Source: Chitinophagaceae bacterium (GTDB lineage: Bacteria; Bacteroidota; Bacteroidia; Chitinophagales; Chitinophagaceae). From it: DNA of 36,276 nucleotides. Made by a program: the position numbers and the translations under genes. The notes beneath the pieces are model-generated. The model was given only the letters and a program-made list of their open reading frames with translations, made no database searches and was not told where the DNA came from. Below are positions 14,049 through 19,684 of the stretch, piece by piece. Positions within the stretch are counted from its first letter, which is position 1, and each line of letters opens with the position of its first letter. The stretch is from positions 1 through 36,276 of the forward strand of contig JADZFY010000281.1 in assembly GCA_020854215.1 (NCBI GenBank). Reading direction: 5' to 3'.

Positions 14049-14075
14049 ATGAACTGAGTCCTCCGTTCCAAAAAA

Positions 14076-14231
14076 TCAAAATTTCAATTCTCCGTCCTTA
14101 GTCTCAATAATCAATTCCTTTTCGCCCGCGTTCTCAACGCTGCCAATGATCTGCGCGTCCACACCATAACTTTGCGCGGACTGCATAACGGTTGCAGCAT
14201 TTTTCTCCGTTGTATATATTTCCATCCGGCA
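14076..14231 (-). pseudogene. purM 3'-end remnant
   Basis: Minus-strand translation CRMEIYTTEKNAATVMQSAQSYGVDAQIIGSVENAGEKELIIETKDGELKF*, collinear without gaps with the intact PurM C-terminus CRMEIYSTERHAASVIQAANHYGVEARIIGRVEAAERKELVIQTKDEALKF*. Confidence 0.9.
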
Positions 14232-14365
14232 CTGGCACAGGTTGGGTAGCCTCGATTTGTGCCAGGCCAGACCTGCTGCCTTGCTTTTACTTATCTAAAT
14301 TTCTTAAACAAACTTTGCAGAAAATGATACACCTATTATTATTGCGAAACAAGTAACGCTTAGGC
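14229..14365 (+). repeat. Direct repeat A, copy 1 (137 bp)
   Basis: gcactggcacagg...aagtaacgcttaggc; ungapped match to 16850-16986 with about 7 mismatches counted by eye. Confidence 0.93.
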
Positions 14366-14429
14366 TTGTGTACACTTCCGTAATCCTGCCTACAGCACAT
14401 CCGCATAGCTTGTAACCACATAAACGGCA
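14366..14429 (+). repeat. Repeat B, truncated copy
   Basis: ttgtgtacacttccgtaatcctgcctacagcacatccgcatagcttgtaaccacataaacg matches the middle of the 147-bp units at 18007-18300. Confidence 0.88.
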
Positions 14430-14495
14430 TTGCGGTTGGATTAATGTTTTTATCGTTCATTACCTAAATTTACATATCCTATAAAAACAAAAAAT

Positions 14496-16706
14496 ATGAA
14501 ATCAGCACCTCTTAAAGAAATAAAACACCTATTGCCACAAGACAGCCATTATTATAAAGATGAATACTACTTGGATAAAGAAGTACTCTTGCACGAAGGC
14601 GATTGGATAATAGCTGAATCTCTTGATTTGGACCAACCGGAACTACTTCTTGCAGACGGAGATTGCCCGGAGTTTCCACCTTTTATTTTGGTGACCGGAA
14701 ATATGGTAGCTCAGAATATTTTCAATGATGAAACGGATGGCTCTACAGGCCTTATAGTATTGGGCAACCTTACTGCGGAAAACATCGTGGTGGGCGGAAA
14801 GGAATTGTATATAAAAGGCAATTTGATTGTGAATGGATTGTTTTGGGGCGACTACAATCACGGAGAATTAATTGTGGAAGGGAAAATAGCTATAAAAGTC
14901 TTTCTCAATACAGATTATCACTGCGATTATGACCGGTTTACCAACAGGCAAAATATGGAAGTGAACCATATTTTTTGGGATGATGTGGACGACGACATAA
15001 CGGATGATTCAGAGATAAGAACTTGGTTTAAACCAGAATATTTAGAAAATGAAGATGAACTATTATTGTCAGGAGACGAAATATGGAGCTGGCAATCTTG
15101 GTTGAAAAAGGAAGAGATTTTGGAAGCTTTGAAAGAAGCAAAGAACATCCTGAATGACGAACCTATTTCATCCGAAGATGCTAATAATGAAGTAATTCCT
15201 TCTTTGTTTCCTAACAATTTAATCAGTTTGGAAAACCTGAAAATCTTTACACAATCTACTTTGCCAACTAAAAACAAAGATGATGATTCGCAATGGAATC
15301 ATTATAAATACTGGGACGGAGATGTTTATCGCAAAATAAGTATTACTGATGATAAAGACCCTGAACAAACACAGGTGTTGTTTCAATACAATGAAGAGTT
15401 TTATTTACTGGCTGCTTATTATGAAGATGATAAAGAAGTACAAATTACTTATAACGGAGATATTTTCGGTTCCAATTCAACCTATTTTTTCGATTTTGAT
15501 GAATATCCCGAACGCTATATTTTCTTTCAAAAAGAATGGAAAACCTTTCAGCAGCAATTTTCCGAAGCGGTTTACTGGCAGAAAAAATTTTATGAAACCA
15601 TCACCCAAAAACGATTTGATGATTTATTGGCCCTGCCTTATGTACGAGCAGAATTGAGCGATTATGACGATGACGATTCTATTTATCATTGGAAAAATAT
15701 GGGCTGGCAATTCCGTCAGGAAGATTCCGGCAAAGATGCCCGAATAACGATTACGAAGGAACTAAATGAGCGGGACGAAAACGATGAAAGTATTTTTGAA
15801 TTTTATCATATTGAATTTGAAAACGGCAAACCTGTGTTGATGACCCAGCACGGAAATGGCGTTGAATTTGATCTGTATTATGTGCATTACAGCAAAACAG
15901 AAAAGTACAAAAAAGCCATTGCTTATTTTGAAGAAATGGAGCAAAAAATCGGGTTGCTCAATCAACAATATTTAAAAAGGTTAGAACAAAATGCCAATGA
16001 AAAAGAATTGTTGCTGGCATTTATTGAGATGGAAGATATGCAATTGCAGTCCGGTATGTTTGATGAAAAATGGTATGCAGAACATTGGGAAACATTGAAA
16101 AATACAGCCTACAGAGCAGATGACCTGGTAAACAAAGATGATTTGGAAACCTTGTATTTTCATTTGATCAGAAAAGATGCACTACTACCTTACGGAATGG
16201 AGCATTACGAACTTTTAGAAAAGGCCTACAAAAAACAAACACTCTATTTCGATACAAAAAAGTATGGTTATCCATATACCTTGATGAGCAGGTTGGAAGG
16301 GCTTTTCATCTTTGGTTTCGATGATAAAATTACCGTTGCAAAAAACAATCGTGGGCATAACGATTTTAGAAGGTTACTGACCAGTTGGCATAGAATGAAT
16401 GCCTATACTTCTATTAAAGGAATATTGGAAGCAAAAGGATCCTTAACACCTTACGCTTCGGAAGAATACACGATTACAAGAATTATCAAAACATTGGAAG
16501 GGCTTGGCTTCGTTCACGATTATCCTAAATATGAAGCAGATTATCAATACACAAATTTACCGTTTTGGGTAATGATGGCAATGCTCATACTAAATAGTTC
16601 TGAACAAGCGAAAGACTCCATAGAAAATTATAAATCATTAAATAATTTACCTTTTTACGAAAAGCAAATGGAGATTTTAAACCGGTTGGAAACGGCGTTT
16701 AAATGA
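14496..16706 (+). CDS. Large protein with bactofilin/beta-helix-like N-terminal region, function unknown
   Basis: 736-aa ORF; short-period hydrophobic/Gly repeats FILVTGNMVAQNIF...GLIVLGNLTAENIVVGGKELYIKGNLIVNGLFWGDYNHGELIVEGKI; acidic remainder. Confidence 0.85.
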   Translation: MKSAPLKEIKHLLPQDSHYYKDEYYLDKEVLLHEGDWIIAESLDLDQPELLLADGDCPEFPPFILVTGNMVAQNIFNDETDGSTGLIVLGNLTAENIVVGGKELYIKGNLIVNGLFWGDYNHGELIVEGKIAIKVFLNTDYHCDYDRFTNRQNMEVNHIFWDDVDDDITDDSEIRTWFKPEYLENEDELLLSGDEIWSWQSWLKKEEILEALKEAKNILNDEPISSEDANNEVIPSLFPNNLISLENLKIFTQSTLPTKNKDDDSQWNHYKYWDGDVYRKISITDDKDPEQTQVLFQYNEEFYLLAAYYEDDKEVQITYNGDIFGSNSTYFFDFDEYPERYIFFQKEWKTFQQQFSEAVYWQKKFYETITQKRFDDLLALPYVRAELSDYDDDDSIYHWKNMGWQFRQEDSGKDARITITKELNERDENDESIFEFYHIEFENGKPVLMTQHGNGVEFDLYYVHYSKTEKYKKAIAYFEEMEQKIGLLNQQYLKRLEQNANEKELLLAFIEMEDMQLQSGMFDEKWYAEHWETLKNTAYRADDLVNKDDLETLYFHLIRKDALLPYGMEHYELLEKAYKKQTLYFDTKKYGYPYTLMSRLEGLFIFGFDDKITVAKNNRGHNDFRRLLTSWHRMNAYTSIKGILEAKGSLTPYASEEYTITRIIKTLEGLGFVHDYPKYEADYQYTNLPFWVMMAMLILNSSEQAKDSIENYKSLNNLPFYEKQMEILNRLETAFK

Positions 16707-16850: not shown

Positions 16851-16986
16851 CACTGGCGCAGGTTTGGTAGCCTTTCTTTGTGCCAGGTCAGACCTGCTGC
16901 CTTGCTTTTACTTATATAAATTTCTTAAACAAACTTTGCAGAAAATGATACACCTATTATTATTGCGAAACAAGTAACGCTTAGGC
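16850..16986 (+). repeat. Direct repeat A, copy 2 (137 bp)
   Basis: gcactggcgcagg...aagtaacgcttaggc; see copy 1 at 14229-14365. Confidence 0.93.
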
Positions 16987-17080
16987 ATCAGGTGTGCCAT
17001 CACACAATACCCGCCCTACCCACCTGCGCCAGAATGCGGTGAAATCCCCCTTGCTTACTCGACTGTACGTTCGCCCTGCG

Positions 17081-17926
17081 TCACTTTTTAAAATTTAAAA
17101 TTGTGTCAGATGAAATCTGCAAGGATTTTGGGTCGCTTGGTTGGAAGTTTGATTGGGGCTTGGTTGGCGTACAAGATTTTCCAATGGTTAGTCCTCCACC
17201 AAATGATATGAGAATTGTAAATATAAACTGAACAGCGTTTTTAATAAACTCGTCAACCCATTTTTGATACCATTTCTTTTTGGGTGCGTCTGGGTTGTTG
17301 GTTTGATTAAATGAAAGTTCTTTACCAGCAGCAGGACTATTGTCGCCATGAGTTGTGATGCTGTTGTCAATATGAACACTTGGTTTTGGTTTGCTTTGTT
17401 CGGTTATAATATCTAATGCTTCTTTGCAAGTTTGGGTGTTATAAAAGTCGGAGTTAAGATGTGTTGAGGTTAGCCCACTTGAGGATTTAGAATACAGAAC
17501 TCGCTTAGAAAGCAATAGTTCTTTTGCTACTGATAGGTTTGCCGGTTTGCCGTTGTACGAACTCTTTGTCCAAAAATGAGAATACTTGTCGTTCTTGTGC
17601 ATTTGAAAAAGTATTTCGCATGTTTGGTCTAATTCCATATTGGTAGAGTTTGTCGGGTCTAATGGCAACCCTGTCTTTTGAAAGTATTGTTCTTTTAATT
17701 GGTCAGCATACTGTAAACCTGGTTTAGTAATATGAACTATTGGATTGCTTATAGTAGGTGGCCCAGAAATGTAGCCCCTATGAAACATCGTTTGAAAAAT
17801 AAATTTGTGTATATCAGCAGGAATGGATAAGTCGGTCAATAGAGAATAAAAGTCGAAGTCTTTGTCTTGATTTTCTTGTTTAGCTAAGTGTAAGATTGTA
17901 ATGTCAATGCCTTCGACTTTGTTCAT
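17081..17926 (-). CDS. Hypothetical protein: winged-helix-like N-terminus, single TM segment near C-terminus
   Basis: 281-aa ORF; FQTMFHRGYISGPPTISNPIVHITKPGLQYADQLKE resembles a wHTH hairpin; NAVQFIFTILISFGGGLTIG hydrophobic segment. Confidence 0.7.
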   Translation of the reverse strand: MNKVEGIDITILHLAKQENQDKDFDFYSLLTDLSIPADIHKFIFQTMFHRGYISGPPTISNPIVHITKPGLQYADQLKEQYFQKTGLPLDPTNSTNMELDQTCEILFQMHKNDKYSHFWTKSSYNGKPANLSVAKELLLSKRVLYSKSSSGLTSTHLNSDFYNTQTCKEALDIITEQSKPKPSVHIDNSITTHGDNSPAAGKELSFNQTNNPDAPKKKWYQKWVDEFIKNAVQFIFTILISFGGGLTIGKSCTPTKPQSNFQPSDPKSLQISSDTILNFKK

Positions 17927-18006: not shown

Positions 18007-18153
18007 TTCCTTCGCCACAACGTCTCTCACCGGCTTTGTGCTTAGCCAGGATGTTGTGTGCACTTCCGTAATCCTGTCTACAGCACATCCGCATAGCTTG
18101 TAACCACATAATCGCCATGACTATTTTCCAGATAAAATTGTGCTGAGCTATGT
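18007..18153 (+). repeat. Repeat B, tandem unit 1 (147 bp)
   Basis: ttccttcgccacaacgtctctcaccggctttgtgc...gagctatgt; tandem with unit 2. Confidence 0.95.
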
Positions 18154-18300
18154 TTCCTTCGCCACAACGTCTCTCACCGGCTTTGTGCTTAGCCAGGACG
18201 TTGTGTACACTTCCGTAATCCTGCCTCCAGCACATCCGCATAACTTATAACCACATAAACGCCATGATTATTTTCCAGGTAAAATTGTGCTGAGCTGTGT
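18154..18300 (+). repeat. Repeat B, tandem unit 2 (147 bp)
   Basis: About 10 differences from unit 1 over 147 nt counted by eye (~93% identity). Confidence 0.95.
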
Positions 18301-18364
18301 TTACAGTTAACCGGACTTTCACATAAATCCCGCACTCCTTTAACTGGGTTTATCTTGTTCGACA

Positions 18365-18450
18365 CGTCCCCCGCAGCTTTGTACCTGTTCTCAACTTTTA
18401 GCTATGTGGGAGACGGGGCGGCGAAGTACTTCATAAAGAAGCCAGCCGCC
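18365..18450. other. Hairpin-rich noncoding block (block C)
   Basis: Imperfect stem CGTCCCCCGCAGCT (18365-18378) / AGCTATGTGGGAGACG (18400-18415); second stem GGCGGC (18417-18422) / GCCGCC (18445-18450) with inner CTTC/GAAG. Confidence 0.5.
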
Positions 18451-18514
18451 GAGGCGCCGACAATGCGTTTTGTTGAATATAAAGCTTAAGCCCGGGCAAT
18501 TCAATTTTTCAAAT

Positions 18515-19684
18515 TCAAAATTTCAATGCTTCATCTTTGGTTTGAATCACCAGTTCCTTTCTTTCCGCCGCTTCCACCCTGCCGATTATCCGCGCTTCTA
18601 CACCATAATGATTTGCCGCCTGAATAACAGATGCAGCATGCCTTTCGGTACTGTATATTTCCATCCGGCAACCCATATTAAACACCTGGTACATCTCATG
18701 TGCCGAGGCGCCGGATGCCTGCTGAATGATATCGAATATTACCGGTGGAGTAAAAAGATCGTCTTTTACAACCCTTACTTGTTCCGGGATATATTTTAAA
18801 CATTTGGTCTGTCCGCCACCACTACAGTGAATTAAACCGTGAATTGCCTCAAAATTCTCTTCCAGCAGCGTTTTTAATACCGGTGCAAAAGTGCGTGTTG
18901 GAGAAAGGAGCAATTTTCCGATTGAAATATCCTTACCGCCAACAGACAGACGATCCGTCATTCTGTGTTTTCCAATATAAACCACATCCCCTTCCAGGGT
19001 AGATTCGAAGGTTTCGGGATATTGTTCGGCGTAATATTTATTGAGTACATCATGCCGGGCACTGGTGAGTCCATTACTACCCAAACCGCTGTTGTATTCC
19101 TGCTCATAAGCACAGGTACCAAAGCTCGACAATCCTACGATCACATCACCCGCCTGAATTTTCTCATTGGTGATGAGTTGGTTTTTGGGCCACCGGGAAG
19201 TCATGGTGCCATTTACGGCAATCGTTCTTACCACATCGCCCACATCGGCCGTTTCTCCTCCGAGGTAGTGAATGTGGATACCGTAAGCGGACATGGTATC
19301 AAAAAACTCCTGCGAGCCTCTGATAATTTGCTCCAGCACCTCGCCCGGGATGCGTTTCTTATTGCGGTCAATGGTTGAATTAAAGATAAGATTATCATGT
19401 ACACCCACGCAAAGCAAATCATCAAGGTTCATCACAATGGCATCCTGTGCAATTCCTTTCCATACCGAAACATCGCCGGTTTCTTTCCAATACAAATAGG
19501 CCAAAATACTTTTGGTACCCGCACCATCGGCGTGCATTATGTTTACAAAATCGGCATCCTTGCCCAAAAAATCAGCATATATTTTGCAAAACGCATTAGG
19601 GAAAAGCCCCGCGTCTAAATGTTTTACTGCCGCGTGAACTTCTTCCTTCTGCGCGGAAACGCCTCTCTGGTTGTATAAACTCAT
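18515..19684 (-). CDS. purM: Phosphoribosylformylglycinamidine cyclo-ligase
   Basis: HADGAGTKSILAYLYWKETGD, VGVHDNLIFNSTIDRNKKRIPGEVL, GLSSFGTCAYEQEYNSGLGSNGLTSARH. Confidence 0.93.
   Translation of the reverse strand: MSLYNQRGVSAQKEEVHAAVKHLDAGLFPNAFCKIYADFLGKDADFVNIMHADGAGTKSILAYLYWKETGDVSVWKGIAQDAIVMNLDDLLCVGVHDNLIFNSTIDRNKKRIPGEVLEQIIRGSQEFFDTMSAYGIHIHYLGGETADVGDVVRTIAVNGTMTSRWPKNQLITNEKIQAGDVIVGLSSFGTCAYEQEYNSGLGSNGLTSARHDVLNKYYAEQYPETFESTLEGDVVYIGKHRMTDRLSVGGKDISIGKLLLSPTRTFAPVLKTLLEENFEAIHGLIHCSGGGQTKCLKYIPEQVRVVKDDLFTPPVIFDIIQQASGASAHEMYQVFNMGCRMEIYSTERHAASVIQAANHYGVEARIIGRVEAAERKELVIQTKDEALKF

Follow-up and report, generated by a model that had tools for sequence, protein, structure and literature searches.

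Known REP-associated transposases and their hairpins

Among the TnpA_REP proteins, subclass 2.6 corresponds to the group 5 REPtrons of Bertels and is found in Bacteroidetes (Quentin et al. 2018, PMC6006769). Its members share the motifs NH[LIV]H, WQ, and YIH[QN]NP, carry SS in a C-terminal extension, and have a distance of about 82 between the HUH motif and the tyrosine; alongside their genes are atypical hairpins without GTAG, which have copies elsewhere in the genome (PMC6006769). In the proposal of Bertels and Rainey, the ends of an IS200-like ancestor gave rise to REPINs; these authors also maintained that RAYTs themselves appear to be unable to move (PMC3116915). In the CGTC-tagged REPs, the CGTC tag is unpaired, and no transposase was found to be associated with these repeats (PMC3733652).

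A transposase remnant in a tandem repeat

We analyzed a stretch of 36,276 nucleotides from a Chitinophagaceae genome (4.2 Mb in 509 contigs); we refer to this whole stretch as the window. It holds a single tandem array, which we call repeat B: two units of exactly 147 bp, B1 (18007-18153) and B2 (18154-18300), that are 93% identical, just as a first-pass annotation of this DNA had reported. That annotation also described two hairpins in each unit. The first of these, CACAACGTC..GACGTTGTG, is real: its stem is perfect at 18163-18205 and has one changed base at 18016-18058 (GATGTTGTG), and only 2% of dinucleotide shuffles of the repeat-B unit reach an exact inverted repeat of 9 bp. The second, CAGCACA/TGTGCTG, is present, but an inverted repeat of at least 7 bp occurs in 25% of shuffles. 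It falls within coding sequence and is missing from the sister copies on two other contigs (C356 and C320). We therefore rejected it as a hairpin.

What the first-pass annotation missed is that repeat B, read on the minus strand, is the remnant of a transposase gene. The 53 codons at 18192-18350 (minus strand; NPVKGVRDLCESPVNCKHSSAQFYLENNHGVYVVISYADVLEAGLRKCTQRPG*) are the C-terminal end of a RAYT. Only the part from NP onward is kept, codons 1 to about 145 are gone, and the remnant has neither the HUH motif nor the catalytic tyrosine. Its stop codon sits within the hairpin, which is the right (3') REP of the element. Unit B2 consists of the 3' part of the remnant and this REP (18156-18205, minus strand; stem CACAACGTC/GACGTTGTG plus the tail GCGAAGG; E = 8.4e-14 with our right-REP covariance model, R3). 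Unit B1, on the same strand, consists of the last ~37 codons of the remnant, with one in-frame TAG, and a 3' REP with one stem mismatch (18009-18058, minus strand; E = 7e-13). The element is completed by a second and different hairpin, also missed at first, which forms its upstream end: the left (5') REP, GCCGCCCCGTCTCCC..GGGGGACGTGTCG, at 18355-18426 on the minus strand (model E = 1.7e-21).

Related copies have the same arrangement. On C356 and C320, repeat B stands between two different hairpins, and on C356 the stretch between them translates, on the opposite strand, to YYHLNPVKGVWNLCESPIDYKHSSAQYYLQNNQGELEVRCYAVVLETGLQNAQRPG*. Across 200 genomes of the family, we identified full-length genes, encoding about 195-220 amino acids, that share the C terminus of the window remnant. 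The closest full-length gene that we found by scanning genome contigs, L082, is from a metagenome-assembled genome of the Cyclobacteriaceae; it encodes 200 amino acids and is 76% identical to the sister remnant on C356. L082 matches the NCBIfam model REP_Tyr_transpos (NF047646) over nearly the whole profile of 146 positions, including its end, with E = 2.4e-16 and 60 bits, which is below the curated cut-off of 80 bits. The RAYTs in this set score 56-71 bits against that same cut-off of 80, and their matches to PF01797 are also sub-threshold. L082 has the HUH motif NHIH and the Y motif YYHINP. Together with the profile match below cut-off, an HUH motif and Y---NP are the protein features of a RAYT (TnpA_REP class 2), and the gene is flanked by REP-like hairpins that recur elsewhere in the genome. 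By these features, L082 is best classed as a divergent RAYT.

The window remnant itself has no match in Pfam or NCBIfam and is too short for either, and the assembly (95% complete, 509 contigs) yielded no intact RAYT with exactly these REPs. The genome does have ten matches to PF01797. These are other Y1 transposases, and the flanks that we inspected did not contain the hairpins of repeat B. When we searched the sequences of solved structures, the best match was a TnpA_REP (4ER8) at only E = 0.16, and an AlphaFold model of L082 built from two sequences had a mean pLDDT of 36 and was set aside.

Repeat B is very probably a relic of a RAYT and its REPs. The best explanation overall, to which we assign a probability of roughly 0.88, is that it derives from a REPtron-like element with the order 5' REP, RAYT (an HUH/Y1 transposase), 3' REP.

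Origin of the 147-bp tandem

In the window, unit 2 starts exactly at the end of the REP of unit 1 (GGCGAAGGAA is followed directly by ACATAGCTCAGC). Two other genera also have partial copies in tandem, and in these, too, one boundary is at the outer end of a REP and the internal boundary varies. One of these genomes (G059, locus L045) has a 293-bp unit and a partial unit 169 bp away; the other (G182, locus L048) has a complete element with 143 bp repeated on its 5' side and 175 bp repeated on its 3' side. It is this outer end of the REPs (the GGCGAAGGAA side), and not TTGTG, that is reproducible as a boundary.

These arrangements could arise if one copy inserts into the 3' part of the RAYT gene of another copy, or joins a REP outer end there. 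The resulting order would be REP outer end, internal RAYT, REP, and partial loss would follow. We lean slightly toward this origin for the 147-bp tandem, and insertion with later loss would fit the tandems in the window, in G059, and in G182. A nested insertion also predicts that the recipient RAYT should have its 5' half upstream of the left REP. This half is absent from the window, so under this scenario it must have been lost.

Alternatively, the same relic might have acquired its 147-bp tandem on the spot, when replication slipped across the hairpin. Hairpins promote slippage, the units follow each other head to tail without intervening bases, and there is about 2 bp of microhomology at the unit boundary, which is all the homology that the boundaries share. 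However, one boundary is the outer end of the REP, which is the normal end of single copies, and the same is true of the tandems in the two other genera, whose units differ in length. We consider slippage to be possible but somewhat doubtful. B1, B2, and the truncated copy at 14366 differ from one another at 4, 4, and 6 of 65 bases, and the sites that they share conflict over their order of descent.

In L048 (positions 800-1950), the complete RAYT element is enclosed by what is left of another copy, a 5' piece and a 3' piece, with codons from about 15 to about 150 missing.

Internally deleted copies at unrelated sites

The genome of the window contains this element in several states. Contig C427 has the 5' REP and a broken long RAYT with several stops. 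Two copies on C356 and one on C320 retain both REPs, with the last ~56-58 codons between them. The internal deletion junction is the same in these three copies, between GCAAG and ATTATTACCAT; they are 89-96% identical, and their flanks are unrelated. The window copy also keeps both REPs, and it has its own deletion junction, near codon 146. Together, the window copy and the three copies on C356 and C320 keep ~53-58 codons. Finally, C140 and C320/C325 carry bare REP doublets of about 120 bp, without a gene, that are 99% identical (the doublets of C320 and C325 overlap at contig ends, and we took them to be one locus). In other genomes, we found a form with about 25 codons left (G201, same genus) and two deletion derivatives that are 97.6% identical over 327 bp and have unrelated flanks (G101, another genus). 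In the latter pair, homology stops at the outer end of the 5' REP.

Because one deletion form is present at several unrelated sites, movement of the unit in trans seems to be the best explanation. A RAYT acting in trans would recognize the single-stranded REP hairpins, make its cuts close to their outer ends, and move the whole unit, and internally deleted copies would spread in this way. Judging from the sequences, the odds are about even that the RAYT of these Bacteroidota, rather than being fixed and domesticated, moves with its two REPs as a unit. It is just as uncertain whether such units become REPIN-like doublets through internal deletion in steps, which is part of the same reading. If so, and here too we see the chances as balanced, then the forms with about 53-58 and about 25 codons left would be intermediates of this process, visible in living genomes. 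With the shared junction in three copies at unrelated sites and the derivatives in a second genus, the origin of REPINs becomes testable in this group, and so does the mobility of RAYT units.

Two further loci run against the usual picture of RAYTs as single-copy genes: L040 and L049 are direct repeats of RAYTs, 1025 bp (in G152) and 1330 bp (in G115) apart, that are 100% identical over at least 300 nt.

The truncated copy and repeat A

The first-pass annotation reported a third, truncated copy fused to another repeat, repeat A, and our analysis confirmed this. The fragment at 14366-14430 (minus strand) is a RAYT 3' end that is 94% identical to both B units; it starts at TTGTGTAC, the break lies 5 nt inside the arm of the right REP, and a copy of repeat A without its right end (14226-14365) is directly before it. 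The complete copy of repeat A in the window (16853-17032) has 11-bp terminal inverted repeats, CTGGCGCAGGT/ACCTGCGCCAG. Elsewhere, repeat A is complete on C366 (L131, ~411-604), and it is broken on C427 (L128, ~1454-1517) as well as at 14365. Repeat A forms a MITE-like family of its own, which has hairpin ends as well as the 11-bp terminal inverted repeats. One copy lies inside the 3' end of a RAYT in G029 (L078, ~1630-1815), and the half copy on C427 is beside a 5' REP.

As copies of both repeats are broken, the junction at 14365/14366 joins two broken elements. The fragment at 14366 may have been produced by a later deletion in which decayed copies of A and B became fused at the margins of their hairpins. 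A GCTTAG hexamer is close to the junction in both parents, which is a possible but weak microhomology.

To the first-pass annotation, the junction had instead looked like site-specific or structure-driven strand exchange at G^TTGTG, resembling attC recombination, an idea that clustering of junctions at this site in other genomes would support. This reading is borne out in part: the hairpin is of the kind used as a single-stranded substrate by HUH/Y1 enzymes, and breaks do lie near its inner foot. Site specificity at G^TTGTG did not hold up. The third copy does start at TTGTG, and one other copy, G206:C12, ends at CACAA. However, the right-REP model has 17 matches in 13 genomes of the genus, and 16 of these are full length through the site (a contig end truncates the remaining one). 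Also, breaks in the arm of the 3' REP are scattered, which the first-pass annotation itself had named as the outcome that would refute it: they lie after CACAA (14366 in the window and G206:C12), 2 nt in (L061), or 9 nt in, after CACAACGTC (L082). Other breaks are in the RAYT gene, in the loop of the 5' REP, or after the 5' REP. The core sites of attC have the consensus RYYYAAC / GTTRRRY, and by inspection, CACAAC/GTTGTG falls outside it, so the hairpin of repeat B does not look like an attC site. Nor did we find any match over the cut-off to the integron integrase model (TIGR02249); the 14 control genomes all gave sub-threshold matches to tyrosine recombinases as well. Recombination with G^TTGTG as its specific site, attC-like or otherwise, is therefore very improbable, and the breaks in the 3' REP arm are best read as loss at the foot of the hairpin, not as one exchange site.

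The hairpins belong with RAYT genes

The 5' REP of the window and C356 (CGCCGCCACGTCTCCC..GGGGACGTGGCGAACAA) also precedes L082, whose 3' REP begins with CACAACGTC. Just upstream of the 5' REP of L082 is a REP doublet that ends in the 3' REP type of the window. In other full-length RAYTs of the family, the stop codon is directly followed by a hairpin, often with an inverted upstream partner whose arms match (examples are CGCAACGTC, CGCAATGTC, CGCAAAGTC, CGCAGAGTC, and GGCGAGTC). In 14 right-hand hairpins, 96.8% of stem cells are paired, and 5 pairs (16 cells) show compensatory changes. None of 500 shuffles equaled the observed values, and pairing drops to 22-56% in slid registers. This covariation comes from the wider set, as the copies in the window's own genome have no compensatory change in the stem. 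Since the stems covary and the hairpins adjoin RAYTs, hairpin and gene belong together, with each RAYT having its own REP. The hairpins do lie between genes and can fold, as might ordinary intergenic palindromes, either terminators or attenuators, that chance had duplicated next to a hypothetical gene. However, they are dispersed in the genome and joined to RAYT 3' ends, RAYT genes elsewhere are flanked by the same hairpins, and the stems covary from RAYT to RAYT, so that explanation is hardly credible.

Genomic surroundings

The window holds the C-terminal 51 codons of a second PurM-like (AIR synthase) gene (14072-14231 and 18511-18670), with 65% protein identity to the resident gene (18515-19684, minus strand). 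In related genomes (such as G207, G200, and G206), the stop codon of the AIR synthase gene is directly followed by a convergent Rrf2 gene. Because these genes adjoin in the relatives, the window contains an insertion of ~4.4 kb with a duplicated gene end. Two open reading frames in the insertion, at 14496-16706 (plus strand, 736 amino acids) and 17081-17926 (minus strand, 281 amino acids), had no match in Pfam, NCBIfam, or PADLOC. Searches of the window for Rfam families, tRNAs, and tmRNA found nothing, and repeat B had no match in a plasmid collection.

Comparison with known systems

Judged by the published motifs, the nearest known group is likely to be TnpA_REP subclass 2.6. As in that subclass, we see a Bacteroidota element with NH[LIV]H, Y---NP, a C-terminal SS extension, and atypical flanking hairpins with genomic copies; specifically, NHIH, SS, and the atypical hairpins are present, and the HUH-Y distance is 85. 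Two motif details differ: L082 has WK instead of WQ and YYHINP instead of YIH[QN]NP. Also unlike subclass 2.6, fragments of the repeat-B gene appear to travel with both REPs to unrelated sites, and the elements appear to nest.

The HUH/Y1 transposase, subterminal hairpins, and internally deleted copies are reminiscent of IS200/IS605 and its non-autonomous derivatives, but the protein matches the RAYT model and not IS200 (E = 2.4e-16 versus 0.034). The repeats are not canonical GTAG REPs, which have GT[AG]G at the 5' foot of the stem: the feet here are CTTCGCC.. (5' REP) and ACACAA.. (3' REP). Like the CGTC-tagged REPs, which are also known from Bacteroidetes, they are palindromes that contain CGTC (Di Nocera et al. 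2013, PMC3733652). However, that super-family has an unpaired end tag, a stem of 8-9 bp, and a loop of 4-5 nt, whereas here CGTC is in the stem, the loops are longer, and the hairpin abuts a RAYT, so that just the four letters are in common.

The gene-less REP doublets resemble REPINs, which are presumed to be mobilized in trans by RAYTs (Bertels and Rainey 2011, PMC3116915). Dispersed inverted doublets of this kind are present on C140, on C320/C325, and at L082:2140-2270; the window copy is a longer form that has kept RAYT codons. Unlike REPINs, the doublets consist of two unequal REPs (about 72 and 50 nt), each with its own hairpin, their copy number is low, and intermediates with RAYT codons exist. 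Overall, this kind of element, a RAYT with its REPs, is already known. What seems to be new, and to depart from the literature, is the evidence that units of gene plus REPs may move and shrink to REPIN-like doublets.
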